A stretch of 33,116 nucleotides of DNA, from IMG/VR virus record IMGVR_UViG_3300042526_001040, positions 1 to 33,116 of that record; one strand, 5' to 3'. Under the pieces are notes generated by a model, which had not been told where the DNA came from, made no database searches, and saw nothing but the letters and a program-made list of their open reading frames with translations. Below, piece after piece: positions 15,686 through 31,665 of this stretch. Each line of letters starts with the position of its first letter. Within the stretch, counting starts at the first letter, position 1. The position numbers and the translations under genes are program-made. This stretch comes from a virus.

Positions 15686-17350
15686 TTACGTGAAGGCGGG
15701 CCGTTGGCCCTTGGAGACGTCCACGAGCTCGCGGAGGAGCCCCTCGACGTTGCGGAGCGAGAGGGCGGATGCCTCGCCGGGGGCGAGGATCGGTTTCTGG
15801 GGCGCACCGCCAGGGGGCGGCGCCGCCGGGGCCATGCCGGCCTGGAGCTGATCCGCGTTGGGCATCCCCGCTCCCACAGCCTGCTGCCCCCCGGCCTTCT
15901 TCTTCGGCGCCGCGGGCTTGGAATAGAACCACCACGCGGCGGCCCCGAGGGCCCCGAGAGCCGTGATGATTCCGGCGATCCACCCGATGCCGGGGATGGC
16001 GTAGATGGCCCCCGCCACCATGAAGATGGCCTTCGACAGAGCCCCAAAAGCCACCGAGGCCCCCCATGCCAGGGCCGTCGTCACCTTGAGCGGAAGGTTG
16101 GTCATGAAGAAGTTGGTGAGGGCACAGCCGGCCGCCACCGCGAACAGGGCCACCGCGAGGATGCCGGCAGCCAGGGCCACGCCCGTGAGGAGCGGCCCGA
16201 GGCCCGGGACGTTGTCGAGCACCCAGGCGATCTTCTCGGAGACAAACAGAAACGCCCGGCCGGCATAGAGGAGGGCTGGCCCGAGGCTCGACTGGTAGGC
16301 GATGGCCACGATCTTCGCCCCCGCCTCCAGGGCCGAGAAGAAACCGCTCACGCCCCCCATGAGGTACTCAAACTGCTGGGTAAGCGGGACGGCATCCTCC
16401 ATCGCGCCGAGCATCTTCGTGATGCCCATTTCCCCCTCTTTGGTGAGGATCTGGGCGGCCCGGATCGCGTCGGTGCCGAACAGCCGAACCAAAGCATCCT
16501 TCTTCGCGATGTCGTTGAGCTTGCCCATCTTGGCGTTGAGGAGGCCCACCATCTGCGGGAGCCGGATCGGCTTGTTGGCTTTGTCCACGAAGCTCTTCGC
16601 CGAGAGCCCCAGCTCGGCCATGGCGGTTTTGGCTTCGCCGGTGGGGGCGTTGAGCCGGAGGAGCATCGTCTTGAGGCTCGTGCCGGCGTCGGAGCCCTTG
16701 AGCATGTTCTTCCCGAGCACAGCCAGGGCGGCGGAGGTGTCCTCGATGCCTTGGCCGGTCATGCCGGCGACGGCCCCCACCATCGCGAAGCTCTGCACCA
16801 TCTGCTCGATCGAAACGCTGGAGGCATTCGCGGCCGCGGCAATCGTGTTGCCGGCATTCTCCGCGCTCGTGCCGAAGACGTTCATCGAGTCGGCCAGCAG
16901 CTCGGCGGCGGCGCCCCCCTCCAGCCCGCCCACCTTGGCAAACATCACCGCCGTCTTTGCGGCCCCCCCGAGGGCGGCCTCCACGCTCACACCCGCCTTC
17001 GCGAGGTTGAGGAACTGGTCGGCGATCTTGTCGGGGGCCACCCCCAGCTCCGCGGCCATCCGGAGGGCTTCCTTGCGGATCGCCGTGAGCTGGTCGGGGG
17101 AGAGGTCGGAAACCGAAGCCTGGATGCCGCGGATGGCGTCGTCGAAGCCTTGGGAAGCCCGGATGCCGGCGATGAGCGGGGCCCCGAGGATCGCGGCGAA
17201 CATGCCCACCTGGGAGCCGAGGCGCTTCATGATCGACCCGACGTTGGTCATCTGCTCCTGAAACCGGAGCATCGACGTCTGAAACTCGGTGTCGTGCGCC
17301 TTGATCTCGATGAACGCGAGCCCCGCGCGAATGCCGCCCGCTACTCCCAT
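15686..17350 (-). CDS. Tape measure protein (TP901 family)
   Basis: 554 aa from ATG 17350, three bases past the chaperone stop. The N-terminus carries the TP901-type core: FEEI-like FIEIKAHDTEFQTSMLRFQ, then MKRLGSQVGMFAA, ASQGFDDAIRGIQAS, LRMAAELGVAPDKIADQFLN, VEAALGGAAKTAVMFAKV and MVQSFAMVGAVAGMTGQGI. Residues about 340-470 contain several long hydrophobic helices (GPLLTGVALAAGILAVALFA, YAIPGIGWIAGIITALGALG), which in tape measures end up near or in the host membrane at DNA ejection. A Pro/Ala-rich stretch precedes the C-terminal helix. By the usual rule of about 1.5 angstrom per residue the tail would be near 80 nm. The neighbouring chaperone pair confirms the assignment. Confidence 0.9.
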   Translation of the reverse strand: MGVAGGIRAGLAFIEIKAHDTEFQTSMLRFQEQMTNVGSIMKRLGSQVGMFAAILGAPLIAGIRASQGFDDAIRGIQASVSDLSPDQLTAIRKEALRMAAELGVAPDKIADQFLNLAKAGVSVEAALGGAAKTAVMFAKVGGLEGGAAAELLADSMNVFGTSAENAGNTIAAAANASSVSIEQMVQSFAMVGAVAGMTGQGIEDTSAALAVLGKNMLKGSDAGTSLKTMLLRLNAPTGEAKTAMAELGLSAKSFVDKANKPIRLPQMVGLLNAKMGKLNDIAKKDALVRLFGTDAIRAAQILTKEGEMGITKMLGAMEDAVPLTQQFEYLMGGVSGFFSALEAGAKIVAIAYQSSLGPALLYAGRAFLFVSEKIAWVLDNVPGLGPLLTGVALAAGILAVALFAVAAGCALTNFFMTNLPLKVTTALAWGASVAFGALSKAIFMVAGAIYAIPGIGWIAGIITALGALGAAAWWFYSKPAAPKKKAGGQQAVGAGMPNADQLQAGMAPAAPPPGGAPQKPILAPGEASALSLRNVEGLLRELVDVSKGQRPAFT

Positions 17351-17353
17351 GGC

Positions 17354-17663
17354 TCACACCAACCTTTCGAGGTCTTCGTCGGTCGCTTCGGGGATCGCGT
17401 CTTCCAGGGAGCGGAGGAAAGCCGCCCGCTCCATCGGATGAAACTCTTGCCAGTGGTAGGGGCTCGATCGTTGCTTGGGGTCGCGCGTGCTCTCGGCGAG
17501 CTGGGCCACGATCAGACTTGCACGCTGCCAGGAGTCGTGTCGGGATCCTTCGGCGGCCCAGTGAAGCTCTCGGAGCCTTCCCCAGACGTCGGGGTGGGTG
17601 CCGACGATGCCGGCGCAGATGCAGGCGTGGCGCCAGGGATGGACGGGGGCGGCGGGGGCGGGC
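17354..17663 (-). CDS. Tail assembly chaperone, -1 frame extension (T part)
   Basis: A reading frame without any start codon near its upstream end that continues the chaperone gene after a -1 shift. From the poly-Pro tract it gives 95 residues: HPWRHACICAGIVGTH, PDVWGRLRELHWAAEG, QRASLIVAQLAESTRDPK, YHWQEFHPMERAAFL and an acidic end. The pattern (PWR..., a run of helix, then a DPK followed by an aromatic-x-x-x-F-HP motif) is what I recall for the second tail-chaperone frame of related phages, and it ends six bases before the tape measure start. The only way in is a frameshift, as in lambda G/GT. See the finding for the shift site. The exact switch point and efficiency are unknown. Confidence 0.75.
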
Positions 17664-18090
17664 TGTCGCCGGCGAACGTGTCGCGGATCTTCTGCCGAAT
17701 CTCCCCGGACGGATCCTCGATCGCCCCCCGCATCAAACTCATCTTCCCCACGGCCTCCTCCATCGAGACCCGCAAGGCCGTGAATTGCGGGCTCTGGGAG
17801 AAATCCTCCAGGTCATCCACGATCGCCTTCATCCCGGTCTCGATCGCGGGGCCGTGGAGGGCCAGCCAGAATGTTTCCCGGTCGATGCCGGCCTCCAGGG
17901 CCTGGGCCTCGCAGTAGAGCCAGAGCACCACGCCGACGTTCTCCATCTGGGAGAGCTGCCGGAGGGATTTGGTGTCGGGCATGGCGACGTCGAGGAGATC
18001 GATCTCCGTCTCGCTCTTGATCCGCCGCCAGAGGGCGAAGGAAAGCTCGATCTTCCACTCCTGCCCGTTTCGATCCTGGAACTTCTTCAT
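17512..18090 (-). CDS. Tail assembly chaperone (G-type protein)
   Basis: 192 aa from ATG 18090, overlapping the upstream stop as ATGA; upstream in-frame ATGs at 18108 and 18123 would overlap more. The N-terminus (MKKFQDRNGQEWKIELSF, ALWRRIKSETEIDLLDVA) matches a recognised chaperone layout, with an alpha-helical middle (FWLALHGPAIETGMKAIVD, EEAVGKMSLMRGAIED). Then come six consecutive prolines (17644-17661) and a low-complexity Pro/Ala/Ser/Thr tail to the stop. The tail looks like the filler usually left behind by a frameshifting gene. In siphoviruses a minor G-T fusion coats the tape measure before tail assembly. Confidence 0.8.
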   Translation of the reverse strand: MKKFQDRNGQEWKIELSFALWRRIKSETEIDLLDVAMPDTKSLRQLSQMENVGVVLWLYCEAQALEAGIDRETFWLALHGPAIETGMKAIVDDLEDFSQSPQFTALRVSMEEAVGKMSLMRGAIEDPSGEIRQKIRDTFAGDSPPPPPPSIPGATPASAPASSAPTPTSGEGSESFTGPPKDPDTTPGSVQV

Positions 18091-18476
18091 ACGGTCCGCT
18101 GCCCCCATTGCCGAAACTGCCATTGGCTACTCACCACGTTGGAAACACCCTGCTCCTCGCCGACGTCGTGCATCGTGGCGAGGAAGACGCGAGACACGTG
18201 CCCCTGCTGCACGCTCACTTCGACAATCGGATTGCTCCCCGGAACGGAGATTTTTCCGTCGAGGTATTGCGTCTCCTCAAAGTCGAGAAGGGCAAACTCG
18301 ATCTCCAGATCGCGACGGATGACGATCTCGCTGGAGGATTGGTTGCCCGGCCCGGTGGCGTCCTGCCCCTGGGCCTTGAGCCGTAAGAATGCGTCGGTGA
18401 CGCTCTTGAGGATCGTGCCGTCAATCGCCAAAACGCAATTCCGGCCAAGCCGGTATTCGAGCGGTCGCGACGGCAT
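18087..18476 (-). CDS. Tail tube-type protein, paralogue 2
   Basis: 129 aa from ATG 18476. It shares a layout with the next gene: an N-terminal Y-[RK]-LGR signature (LEYRLGRNCVLAIDGTIL), a charged beta-strand centre (SEIVIRRDLEIEFALLDF) and a C-terminal strand pattern (PIVEVSVQQGHVSRVFLA). Directly upstream of the tail chaperone, a position usually held by the major tail protein. The two paralogues are likely tube or tube-capping subunits; which is the major one cannot be told. Confidence 0.6.
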   Translation of the reverse strand: MPSRPLEYRLGRNCVLAIDGTILKSVTDAFLRLKAQGQDATGPGNQSSSEIVIRRDLEIEFALLDFEETQYLDGKISVPGSNPIVEVSVQQGHVSRVFLATMHDVGEEQGVSNVVSSQWQFRQWGQRTV

Positions 18477-20211: not shown

Positions 20212-21264
20212 TCACCTCTGGGGCTGGGCGGTCAGATCGGCGTGGAGATCGAGGAGCTCGGCGTGCTCCGGGTTGCGGGCGAGGCCGGCCCGGCAGAAGT
20301 GGAGCGCCTCCGAGGCCCTGCCGAGCTGGATGGCCGCCTGGAGGCCGATCTCGGCCGGGAGGGCACCGTAGGCGGGGTAGTCGCTTGCGTGGTTGCAAAG
20401 CTGCGGAGGGGCCTGGACGGCAAATCCTGCCCAGTAGAGGGCCCCGGCGGGGTCGGCCTTCTGCTGGCAGTCAAAGGCTAGCGCCAGATAGGCCTCGGGC
20501 TCGGCCGGCGATTCAAGGGCGGCGAGGGTGAGGTAACGGCGGGCTTCTGCCGGCCGGAGCTTGGCGAGCTGCCGGAGCGCGAAGGCCCGCTCGTGCGGGT
20601 TGCCGCCCTGCATGGCGAGATAGCGATCCCAGGAGGCCATCTGCTCCTCGGGGGGCCGGCCGGCAAAGCCCTGCTCCCGGGAGAGATACCACGCGGCACG
20701 GGCGTCGTGAGGATCCTCGCGGACAGCCACCTCCAGGAGCGAAAGATCGTGGCGCCACTTCTTCCCCTCGCAGCGCCGCTGCACGAACAGGAGCCGGTCG
20801 AGATCGATCTCCCGTTGCGGCGCGCCGTCCCAGGCGTGAAGCCACTCGTGGCAAGCCACGCGCCACCGGAAGCCAGATCGGGCGTGGATCCGGTCGCACC
20901 AGATCACTTCGCCGGGGGCCCATTCGTAGCGGCATCGGCATCTGGTGGCGCCGTCGGTCCAGACTTCCTCGAGCGCCTCCCGCCAGCCCGGGGCGAGGGC
21001 TTCGTCGAGATCGAGGCGGATGGCGACGTCGAGCCCCTCTGGCAGGCCCTGCATGGCGGCGTTGTGGGCGTCGTCCCAGCGCCAGGGGAGGATCGAGGCG
21101 GTGCGCGTGGGCACCCCGCGGGCGTGCAGCTCCTGGAGCGTGCAGTCGGTGGAGCCGGTGTCGGTGACGATCCGGCAGTCGGCCTCCCGGCAGGATTCCT
21201 CCCACCGAGCGACGTTGTCGGCTTCGTTTTTCGCGAGCGCGTAGATGCCGATGTGGAGAGACAT
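20212..21264 (-). CDS. Family 2-type glycosyltransferase with TPR-like C-terminus
   Basis: 350 aa from ATG 21264, three bases past the methyltransferase stop. The N-terminal half is a GT-A fold: LHIGIYALAKNEADNVARW, the nucleotide-sugar loop TDTGSTDCT and the metal-binding D-x-D at 85-87 (IRLDLDEA). An acceptor-side region follows with HEWLHAWDG. The C-terminal half (about 190-345) consists of repeated helix pairs with TPR character (DPHDARAAWYLSREQG, NPHERAFALRQLAKLRPAE, GRASEALHFCRAGLARNP). It transfers a sugar to an unknown acceptor: the virion, the host envelope or a protein substrate captured by the TPRs. Tail genes flank it closely. Confidence 0.82.
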   Translation of the reverse strand: MSLHIGIYALAKNEADNVARWEESCREADCRIVTDTGSTDCTLQELHARGVPTRTASILPWRWDDAHNAAMQGLPEGLDVAIRLDLDEALAPGWREALEEVWTDGATRCRCRYEWAPGEVIWCDRIHARSGFRWRVACHEWLHAWDGAPQREIDLDRLLFVQRRCEGKKWRHDLSLLEVAVREDPHDARAAWYLSREQGFAGRPPEEQMASWDRYLAMQGGNPHERAFALRQLAKLRPAEARRYLTLAALESPAEPEAYLALAFDCQQKADPAGALYWAGFAVQAPPQLCNHASDYPAYGALPAEIGLQAAIQLGRASEALHFCRAGLARNPEHAELLDLHADLTAQPQR

Positions 21265-28151: not shown

Positions 28152-30155
28152 TCAGGCAACTTCGTTCCAGACCATCGTTTGCTTTTCGGCGTTGCGGCAG
28201 CCCCACGCCATCCAGCCCTTGAGGATGAAACCGAGGGTGTCCGGGGCGGGATCGGCGCTGACAATCGTCGGGCTCATCACACCGTTGAGCCAAGCCACCT
28301 GCATCGGAGCCAGACCACCACGGCCGCCCACGAGACCCCATCCCGTCGAGGAGGTGAGGAACTGCGTGCTCGCCACCGCATAACGGCCCGCGAGGCTGTT
28401 GGCACTCGGGAGCGTCTTGTTCTCGCCCGTGACCACGGTGCCGGCCTTCATCAAGTCGTTGGCGACGACGTCCAGCTCCGGCGGCACAAGGATCAACCGA
28501 CCCTGGATCACGATCGGCTTTCCGGCCGTGTTCTTCTGCCGCTCGATGAGGGCCTTCGCGGCCCGCAGCGAGGTGAGCGAGAGAGCATTTCCGGCCGCAG
28601 GCGAGACCGTGAGGTAGTAGCTGCTTGAGATGCCCGCGAGGAGCGTGGTGTAGAAGTCCTCGAGGAAGCCCATGCCGGCACCGTCGCCGAGCGCCGTGCC
28701 GAGCTCGTTGAATCGGCCGGTGTCGTCGTTGAGGAAATCTTCCAGCGTCCAAGCAGTGCATCGACCCCACAGATCAGCCTTGATCGTGCGGGTATCCTCG
28801 ATGAGCTTCGCATCCTCCAGTTTTCCGGAGTTGGTCGCTCGCTTGAAGGAGAAGTCGCCCATGGTGCGGACACCGGGGATCTGCTTCAGATCGTTGACCA
28901 TCTTTGGGGTGTGGATCTGCTTCCAGGGATCGGCGTTCATGACCGATTCCCAGCTATCGAGCACGAACTTCCCGTAGCTGGCCGAGAGGGTCGTGGGAAC
29001 GTCGTGCTGGCTGAAGGCAGCCTGAATCACTTCCTTGGAGTTGCCGAGGTGCATCCGGTTTTCGGGGGAGCTCCACCCGGCGGCGCGGGCCGCGCGGAGG
29101 AAGAACTCCTGGATGCCCATGTTCATCCGCTGGTCGTTGCCGGCGGTGAGCTCGTTTTCCTTGAACCGGCGGTGGAGGGCTTCGTCGCCCATCCCCGCGG
29201 CCATGCAGAGAGCCGCGACCGAAGCCATCACACTGAGGCCCGCCCCCTTCATCGACTGGCCGGCGATGTGGCCGGCGGGAGCCGTGCCGAAGCTCCCGCG
29301 GTGGGCCTGGAGCCCCTGAACGCGCTCAAGCTCGATCGTCGCGGCCTGCGCCTCGGCCTGAGCCTTGACGAGCTGGGCCTTCAGGATCTGCTGGGCCGTG
29401 TCATCACCGGCGCCTGCACCGTCACCACCCTTGGCGGCAACGATCGGCGCGGGGGCCGGGGGCGTGGGAGCCGGCGGGGTGCCGGCAGAGGCAGCGGGGG
29501 GAGCACCAGCCGCCACGTTGGTCGGCTCGGAGGTCCCCTCCGGGTTTCCGTTCGAGGGCTTCGACATTGAGGAACCTCCATTGCTCGCCTTCGCGGCGAT
29601 CGCGGCCGACGTCCCGGGGTCGGCTCCCTGCTGACAAATCGTTGCTTCGCGGAGCCGCCCCGAGCGGACCACGAGAATCGGACCGTCGAAGGTGCGGCCG
29701 TTGACCGTTACCTTCTCCTTCGGGCTGAAATATTCGGTTTCGTAGACGTCTCCGCCGACGCTCGCCTGCCACTCAAAGCCCTTGGCGGCCATCCGGACCA
29801 CGTGTTGCGTGATCTCGCTCTCGGTGTTGAGGAGCTGCCCCTGGAGAGCGATTTGCTTCCCGTTGTTGTCAACGGAGGTGGTCTGGCCCAGGAGCGAATC
29901 GGGGGAATAGGTGTCATGGACGTAGTTGATCGCGACCCGCTGACCACACTCAAAGCCCGCGAGGTCAATGACCATCGGGTAGTCGCTCCAGTACTGGCGA
30001 ATCGAATCGCCGGTGTAGAGCACCATGTCAACGGTGGGGATCCTGGGAGCGCCGGCAGAGCCGTCGGCGGCGCGGATCGACACGGCGCCCGTGAGCGAGA
30101 GCCCGTTGGTGCGGGCGGCGGCCTGGAGCTCGGCGGCAGCAAGGATCTTTGTCAT
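28152..30155 (-). CDS. Fused prohead protease-scaffold-major capsid protein
   Basis: 667 aa from ATG 30155, two bases after the portal stop and ten after GGGGA; an in-frame extension to 30179 lies inside portal. Domain 1 (to about 180): a herpes/HK97-type prohead protease with His in INYVHDTYSPDSLLG and Ser in FEWQASVGGDVYE (H80, S132 from this start). Domain 2 (about 195-290): disordered Pro/Ala-rich then coiled-coil sequence (LKAQLVKAQAEAQAATIELE), scaffold-like. Domain 3 (about 300-667): a Mu gpT-type major head protein (FFLRAARAAGW, SYGKFVLDSWESVMNADPW, GDFSFKRATNSGKLED, AKALIERQKNTAGKP, LILVPPELDVVANDLM). Domains 1 and 3 are usually separate genes. One chain would give a protease per capsid subunit, so an internal start at 29567 is probably used. 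The protease would remove itself and the scaffold during maturation. Confidence 0.88.
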   Translation of the reverse strand: MTKILAAAELQAAARTNGLSLTGAVSIRAADGSAGAPRIPTVDMVLYTGDSIRQYWSDYPMVIDLAGFECGQRVAINYVHDTYSPDSLLGQTTSVDNNGKQIALQGQLLNTESEITQHVVRMAAKGFEWQASVGGDVYETEYFSPKEKVTVNGRTFDGPILVVRSGRLREATICQQGADPGTSAAIAAKASNGGSSMSKPSNGNPEGTSEPTNVAAGAPPAASAGTPPAPTPPAPAPIVAAKGGDGAGAGDDTAQQILKAQLVKAQAEAQAATIELERVQGLQAHRGSFGTAPAGHIAGQSMKGAGLSVMASVAALCMAAGMGDEALHRRFKENELTAGNDQRMNMGIQEFFLRAARAAGWSSPENRMHLGNSKEVIQAAFSQHDVPTTLSASYGKFVLDSWESVMNADPWKQIHTPKMVNDLKQIPGVRTMGDFSFKRATNSGKLEDAKLIEDTRTIKADLWGRCTAWTLEDFLNDDTGRFNELGTALGDGAGMGFLEDFYTTLLAGISSSYYLTVSPAAGNALSLTSLRAAKALIERQKNTAGKPIVIQGRLILVPPELDVVANDLMKAGTVVTGENKTLPSANSLAGRYAVASTQFLTSSTGWGLVGGRGGLAPMQVAWLNGVMSPTIVSADPAPDTLGFILKGWMAWGCRNAEKQTMVWNEVA
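29565..29579 (-). promoter_or_regulatory. Internal ribosome binding site and start inside the capsid fusion
   Basis: On the minus strand GGAGG (29579 to 29575) lies seven bases before an in-frame ATG (29567 to 29565) that opens MSKPSNGNPEG. It falls exactly at the protease-scaffold boundary and would give a 471-aa scaffold-capsid protein without protease. It is a better ribosome site than that of the full-length start. Lambda C/Nu3 and many capsid genes use such nested starts. Seen: the site and its location. Inferred: use. Confidence 0.65.
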
Positions 30156-30156
30156 G

Positions 30157-31665
30157 TCAGTTGGTCCCCTGGGTTTCACGGTCGAGGGCCGCGAGGAGCC
30201 CGATGCCGGCAGTCGCTGCCGCCTGAGTCACCGCCTGGAGGTCGAGGCCGAGGCTCTTGGCAAAGGCCTGTTCGGCTGCCTTCTGCTGGAGCACCTTCCG
30301 CCAGTCGGCCCCGCGACGGCTGCACACATCCGCCAACGTGGTGGCGTTGCCGGAGAGGGCGACTTGCTCGGCCGTGGCTTCTTTGAGCGGGTCGATGTGG
30401 CTTGTGCCGTCCCAAGCCCATTCCCAGCTCCACTTGTCGCGGACCGGCAGCCCGTAGGGGATCACCCCCTTGAGCTGCACAGCCTCGTCGAGCCAGAGGT
30501 TAAGGAACGGGTTGAGAATCTTCCGCTCGATGGCGGCTTGGTTCGATTCGATCTTCCGCTTGTAGGCGATCCGGTCGCCCCGCATCGAGGAGTAGTTGCT
30601 CTGGCTCGCGTCCATGCACGCGACGACGTAGGGCATGTCGAGGGCGGAGCCGATCTGCGAGAGGATCCGCCGCTCAAACTCGGCAAACGTGCTCGTGGGA
30701 TGCTCGGCCTTCATCTGGACAGGTTCCCAGCCTTCCGGCGCGGCCATTCCCATGCCGCGAACGATCGGCATCGTCGCCCATAGCGGTTGCTCTGCGGAGG
30801 CGGCGGAGGCCGGCATCGTCGTCTTCAGGATCGCGGCGATGCTCGCGGCAAACTCGGCCGCCGACAGGGTGGCCATGGTGAACCGCCGCAGGATCGCGAA
30901 CAGCTCTAGCACCGGGGCGATCTCGGCCACGCCACGCTGGAGGCCGGGGCGCGTGGTGTGGGCCCAGTGGGTAACTAGCTTCGCGGGGATCCATTTCCCT
31001 TCAAAGCTGCCGCCGATATTCCACGTGCTGCCGGGGTGCTGATCGAGGAGGAAATACTCGATCGGGTTGCCGAAATCGTCGTACCGGATGCCGTTGACGA
31101 CTTCGGGCTCGGAGCGGATGAACAGCTCTAGAAACTGATCGGTCTCGCGGAGCACCCAGTCGAGTTGCACATCGTCGGCCCCGAAGAGCCCTTTGTTCAT
31201 CTGGAAAAGCCCGAACTGATCGCCGTCGGTGAGGTAGCTTTTCCGCGCGGTGCGGAGCTTGCCCGGCATGTCGATGGCGAGCATGTGCTCGAAAACGCGA
31301 TCCTCGACGAGCGACACGAGGCGCTGATCGACCCCCGCGCCGCAGTTGAGGAGGAGCCGCGGGCCGGTGCCCACAACGTCGTTGGCCAAGCGCGTCTGGA
31401 TGCCGGCGAGCCAGCCGTTATTTTGGGCCTCGGCGCGGGAACGGTTGCGGAGGATCCGCCGCACCTCGGGCCGGGCGGCGGAGTTGGCGTCCCACTGGTC
31501 GGCACTCGCGCCCCAGTGGTTTTTGTTGAGGTCGGTCGTCTGGGCGGCATCCCACCGGGCGTGAAGCGCCGAGGCGAGCGTCGTCCGCTGTTCGGAGACG
31601 GTCCGCTCCAAGGCGGAGATCCTCCCCCCCGTGATCGCGTCGGCGATGGTCCCCAGGATTCCCAT
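30157..31665 (-). CDS. Portal protein (lambda gpB family)
   Basis: 502 aa from ATG 31665. The dodecameric portal forms the DNA entry vertex. It matches the lambda-type portal family: RNRSRAEAQNNGWLAGI, TRLANDVVGTGPRLLLNC, WTRETDQF-like VLRETDQFLELFIRSEPE, WIPAKLVTHWAHTTRPG, PVLELFAILRRFTMATLS, and the C-terminal SYSSMR-type QSNYSSMRGDRIAYKRKIES. N-terminal residues 15-45 are helical. The last part (QKAAEQAFAKSLGLDLQAV) resembles the tails seen in this family. It sits between the gpW-like joiner and the capsid gene, in canonical order. Confidence 0.92.
   Translation of the reverse strand: MGILGTIADAITGGRISALERTVSEQRTTLASALHARWDAAQTTDLNKNHWGASADQWDANSAARPEVRRILRNRSRAEAQNNGWLAGIQTRLANDVVGTGPRLLLNCGAGVDQRLVSLVEDRVFEHMLAIDMPGKLRTARKSYLTDGDQFGLFQMNKGLFGADDVQLDWVLRETDQFLELFIRSEPEVVNGIRYDDFGNPIEYFLLDQHPGSTWNIGGSFEGKWIPAKLVTHWAHTTRPGLQRGVAEIAPVLELFAILRRFTMATLSAAEFAASIAAILKTTMPASAASAEQPLWATMPIVRGMGMAAPEGWEPVQMKAEHPTSTFAEFERRILSQIGSALDMPYVVACMDASQSNYSSMRGDRIAYKRKIESNQAAIERKILNPFLNLWLDEAVQLKGVIPYGLPVRDKWSWEWAWDGTSHIDPLKEATAEQVALSGNATTLADVCSRRGADWRKVLQQKAAEQAFAKSLGLDLQAVTQAAATAGIGLLAALDRETQGTN

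Follow-up and report, generated by a model that had tools for sequence, protein, structure and literature searches.

The window, a 33-kb virus contig from IMG/VR (33,116 nt), carries a tail assembly chaperone gene (G) immediately upstream of its tape measure gene, both on the minus strand, with a second domain (T) encoded in the -1 frame beneath G. Comparison with related loci identifies this as a real lambda G/GT-type arrangement, shared by the window and its relatives. The best explanation is a lambda-type chaperone pair in which ribosomes on the window probably slip by -1 at a heptamer over codon F97 (17803-17797), the degenerate counterpart of a slippery sequence conserved in the family. 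The contig belongs to a tailed phage whose host is probably a planctomycete-type bacterium.

G (17512-18090, minus strand) encodes a 0-frame product of 192 aa and lies directly upstream of the tail tape measure gene (15686-17350, minus strand), whose product, starting at 17350, matched PHROG tape-measure families down to 6e-48 and Pfam PhageMin_Tail at 1.1e-36. The G reading frame can be extended to an ATG at 18123; the true start is most likely ATG 18090, giving 192 rather than 203 aa, because this codon and the end of the upstream gene overlap as ATGA and relatives begin with M-K-T-F (they align from M-K-[TK]-F). The 0-frame stops at 17512 within S/P/T/G-rich sequence, the low-complexity end already described in the initial annotation. 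The -1 frame is open from stop to stop across 17354-17812 (minus strand), bounded by TGA 17815-17813 upstream and TGA 17356-17354 at its end, so that T ends at 17354. The initial annotation had recognized this frame and took it to be entered at a hexaproline tract; the frame is indeed present, but its opening at 17812 lies some 150 nt 5' of that tract. As also described there, a 95-residue domain (HPWRHACICAGIVG...DLERLV; 17357-17641, minus strand) is encoded under the 3' half of G and ends just before the tape measure gene, and alignment with Planctomycetota and IMG/VR relatives together with an AF2 model supports it as a domain. It overlaps G without a start codon of its own: the first ATG, GTG or TTG in the -1 frame is GTG 17509, in the middle of T. 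Elsewhere in the window, a match to PHROG 13126 beta-1,4-glycosyltransferase (1.8e-51) lies within the structural gene block at 20212-21264 (minus strand). A 'major head and protease protein' profile covers most of a single 675-aa ORF at 28152-30179 (minus strand), which also matches head maturation protease profiles and probably represents a fusion of protease and capsid genes.

Searches with the window's G and T as direct queries found no relative in viral contigs or phage sequences, and its tape measure protein found none in viral contigs. A contig labelled as a Candidatus Kuenenia MAG (L002, CAMBFA010000068.1) encodes a tape measure protein 89% identical to that of the window, but its upstream gene is unrelated, which suggests that modules were exchanged where the chaperone and tape measure genes meet; for the same reason, this contig was unusable as a test of the frames. 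Relatives were first found by searching 392 genomes of the same phylum (Planctomycetota) with G and T joined into one query, which gave matches in 37 of them, usually as two adjacent matches. With iterated profiles, T was in the -1 frame relative to G at 61 of 61 loci (60 genome loci and the window). The proportion was 140/141 once 80 IMG/VR loci, collected with an alignment of T, were added, and 165 of 166 G/T loci after a further genome sample was included, although these loci are related and the counts overstate their independence. In total, 423 IMG/VR candidates encode a relative. A Synechococcus match to T was judged to be due to chance, and no further viral relatives were found for L184, a window-like locus with the residues DFSQ. 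The relatives share a T motif of approximately W.[LV][IV]W..AG..G..P...LREL..MAE....W...A..AN..RDPK...F.P.DF.P.

With T conserved at 165 further loci, only one of which has it outside the -1 frame, the relation between G and T is far beyond chance. The exception, L158, has the N- and C-terminal halves of G in different frames, with an indel in a homopolymer region. Such an indel, together with the window's origin as an IMG/VR virus contig, would be in keeping with the two frames resulting from a base missing or added during assembly or sequencing, but the same -1 relation is shared by 165 loci from both bacterial genomes and viral contigs. Sequence error is already refuted for the family, and we regard it as practically negligible for the window. 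The initial annotation had proposed aligning relatives to see whether the -1 relation and the Pro/C-tract are conserved; the relation is (165/166), and the tract is not.

To locate the slip site, we measured how far upstream the -1 frame stays open. No in-phase heptamer occurs within 60 nt of the T motif in the relatives. Farther upstream, mostly 150-190 nt before the "AG" of the T motif, nearly every relative has GAT TTT TTC in the 0-frame of G (protein motif D-F-F), which contains the heptamer U_UUU_UUC. Among 103 non-redundant loci, the heptamers at this position were TTTTTTC (77), TTTCTGC (8), TTTTTCC (5), TTTTACC (3), TTTCTTC (2) and CTACTTC (2), the remainder being singles that include the window's TTTCTCC. 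Where the site encodes Phe-Phe, T_TTT_TTC was used in 77 of 81 non-redundant loci, against 3.5 expected from their own synonymous codon usage, and where only the first of the two residues is Phe, the base just before its codon is T in 17 of 18 loci (3.6 expected). U_UUU_UUC remained the main form after clustering by protein identity, in 22 of 33 clusters at 60% and 13 of 20 at 50%. From the site to the stop codon of G, the median distance is 189 nt.

Several features around the heptamer point to ribosomal frameshifting. None of 4925 codons between the heptamer and T is a stop in the -1 frame, compared with 181 of 8352 (2.2%) upstream; five loci have a -1 stop directly adjoining the heptamer. 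An SD-like sequence precedes the heptamer in 81 of 97 loci, whereas synonymous resampling gave 55.9 +/- 4.2 (maximum 65); an internal SD-like element at a defined spacing is also a stimulator in E. coli dnaX. Predicted structure, followed over 150 nt to each side, peaks in the 50 nt right after the heptamer (mean z -1.02; z -0.91 against synonymous resampling), and RNAalifold found no common downstream hairpin in the family. The run of six T in most relatives could also suit transcriptional slippage as the source of the -1 frame. However, slippage by RNA polymerase would be expected on longer runs than six T, the window's run counts just three, and both the SD-like element and the structure downstream speak for ribosomes instead, making this reading highly improbable.

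The same features bear on whether T is a separate gene, translated without fusion through termination-reinitiation or an unusual start codon. Six prophage loci of one genome, G353 (L052, L058, L063, L068, L069 and L070), have a G ending in ATGA whose ATG coincides with the beginning of the T motif, and there T could also arise as a separate protein. Even so, L052 keeps T_TTT_TTC upstream, no ATG, GTG or TTG precedes the T motif in the -1 frame at 97 of 102 loci, the window (where the first lies inside the domain) included, and in all loci the -1 frame is free of stops back to the heptamer, which a separate gene would not need. We therefore consider independent translation of T very improbable.

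In the window, alignment by HMM to the relatives' heptamer column places the most likely shift site at U_UUC_UCC (17797-17803, minus strand), which reads GAU UUC UCC in the 0-frame and precedes the Pro tract by about 136 nt. The initial annotation found no X_XXY_YYZ heptamer, and none is present in phase anywhere in the window's overlap. The window's sequence is best read as a decayed form of the family heptamer, because its two nearest relatives by G identity, L193 and L023, have U_UUU_UCC. The T before the Phe codon is retained. At this site, the P-site tRNA-Phe can re-pair (UUC to UUU), while the A-site tRNA would do so poorly (UCC to CUC). U_UUC is kept at the ancestral site in 11 non-redundant loci, the window included, so P-site-only slippage there is apparently viable. 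The -1 stop at 17815-17813, just upstream, means that the shift in the window cannot occur further 5'.

The window's SD-like GGAGG and its heptamer are 1 nt apart, against about 9-10. A candidate stimulatory hairpin, CCCGCAA-TTCACGGCC-TTGCGGG (17769-17791, minus strand), was found by folding 5 nt downstream of the heptamer, with 7 bp between 17791-17785 and 17775-17769. The 42 nt containing it fold at -14.8 kcal/mol (z -1.32); the 50-nt stretch used for the family folds differently and, with a z of only -0.47, is unremarkable. In the window, U_UUC_UCC is the likely slip site but a putative one, because the perfect heptamer has been lost.

The loss of the heptamer also raises the possibility that the chaperone shifts by -1 in the window at a site that has moved 3'. 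Within the -1 open stretch shared with G (17812-17512), the window has in phase a near-canonical G_GGG_AAG (17743-17749, minus strand), one base from lambda's slippery heptamer G_GGA_AAG, as well as P-site slips at a G6 run (CGG GGG GCG; 17724-17729, minus strand) and at several CCC-CCG steps of the Pro tract, six codons reading CCG CCC CCG CCG CCC CCG (17644-17661, minus strand). The two runs that the initial annotation had put forward as shift sites, the six Pro codons and the G-run, therefore do exist, but the runs tested are not conserved. A G6 run between the heptamer and T is shared by just two of 102 loci, the window and one relative. Six Pro codons were found in the window only, and the relatives share U_UUU_UUC upstream of that position. 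Between the ancestral site and T, the other 101 non-redundant loci include one with four consecutive Pro codons and two with three, and 98 of 102 loci, counting the window, have two or fewer. Being unconserved, the C-tract is not the family's mechanism, and it may simply be part of the disordered tail of G, read as Ala/Pro in the -1 frame. Slippage promoted by ribosome stalling on polyproline, the mechanism suggested in the initial annotation, is not supported. The retained T before the Phe codon and the U_UUC kept at the ancestral position likewise stand against a relocated site, which we consider unlikely, if less so than the alternatives above. Among the frameshift readings for the window, the ancestral position is favored with reasonable confidence.

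Four non-redundant loci (L166, L172, L178 and L182) have lost the heptamer: the site reads C_TTC_TTC, C_TAC_TTC or C_TTC_CTC and offers no obvious slip, but T at these loci is still in the -1 frame. It is conceivable, though somewhat short of probable, that part of the family, including the window, abandoned tandem slippage for a selected P-site-only U_UUC_UNC (11 non-redundant loci), or that the window's lineage now shifts at a new run, for example the C/Pro tract.

In the protein models, the putative products diverge at a predicted domain boundary. The AF2 model of G (pLDDT 80.8) has a helix spanning residues 81-97 that ends exactly at F97, followed by two more helices and a disordered tail, and the slip codon thus falls on the last residue of a predicted helix. 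The best Foldseek matches of this model among viral structures (BFVD) were tail assembly chaperones (E 0.012, prob 1.00, TM 0.37/0.55). The T domain was modeled as helical with a pLDDT of 85. Sequence and fold searches of the PDB with G and T returned nothing significant, the window's G and T matched nothing in PHROG or Pfam, and no family profile links either to lambda. Relatives are recognized only weakly: their T matches PHROG 5297 and 337 ('tail protein') and the G of one relative matches PHROG 183 ('tail chaperone protein'), profiles to which the window's T and G, respectively, gave no match.

We infer continued shifting at the window's decayed heptamer, as well as the shift efficiency and protein roles in the following scheme. 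The majority of ribosomes would read G in full (192 aa). A minority would slip back one base at F97 (GAU UUC UCC, 17803-17797), where the P-site tRNA-Phe would re-pair from UUC to UUU, and would read on in the -1 frame to produce GT (245 aa), in which residues 1-97 of G are joined to the helical T domain through roughly 50 residues of linker rich in Gly, Arg and Asp. If the proteins act as their lambda counterparts do, G would coat the tape measure protein and T would recruit the major tail protein.

In lambda, gpG and gpGT are tail chaperones that work together with the tape measure protein; the T domain is encoded in the -1 frame close to the end of G, to which a -1 frameshift fuses it (PMC5009743). 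The initial annotation had recognized this arrangement. The window agrees with it in the constant -1 frame of a conserved T without a start codon, the position upstream of the tape measure gene and the presumed -1 fusion; in keeping with this, the best viral structural matches of the G model are annotated as tail assembly chaperones. It differs in that the family slips deep inside G, leaving G alone with about 60-95 extra residues, including helices absent from GT, and in the heptamer, which is G_GGA_AAG in lambda and U_UUU_UUC in the family (U_UUC_UCC in the window). An in-phase X_XXY_YYZ is absent from the window and present as T_TTT_TTC in 77 of 103 non-redundant loci, but a canonical heptamer does not strictly define lambda-type G/GT pairs, as some members shift at other signals.

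The closest counterpart in heptamer and in shifting inside the gene is SPP1 17.5/17.5*, where a putative -1 shift at UUUUUUC within the chaperone gene leaves the first 112 residues common to both products (PMC6316719). SPP1 differs in host and sequence, and the window's heptamer is degenerate. In E. coli dnaX, a slippery heptamer is combined with a downstream hairpin (PMC7282821). The family shows a dnaX-like combination of upstream SD-like element, heptamer and downstream structure, in a different gene, with U_UUU_UUC in place of A_AAA_AAG and without a conserved hairpin shape.

These loci constitute a new tail chaperone family that uses a known mechanism, with mild novelty in the depth of the slip site within G (median 189 nt before its stop) and in a homologous series of degraded heptamers. 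They add a large group of chaperones, found in many genomes of Planctomycetota and in IMG/VR contigs numbering in the hundreds, that are nearly invisible to PHROG and Pfam profiles and whose T half offers ORF callers no start codon. At a single homologous position, the family presents a natural series of U_UUU_UUC, U_UUU_UCC, U_UUU_ACC, U_UUC_UGC and U_UUC_UCC, together with some loci that have none, making it directly testable to what extent A-site re-pairing is needed for a working frameshift.
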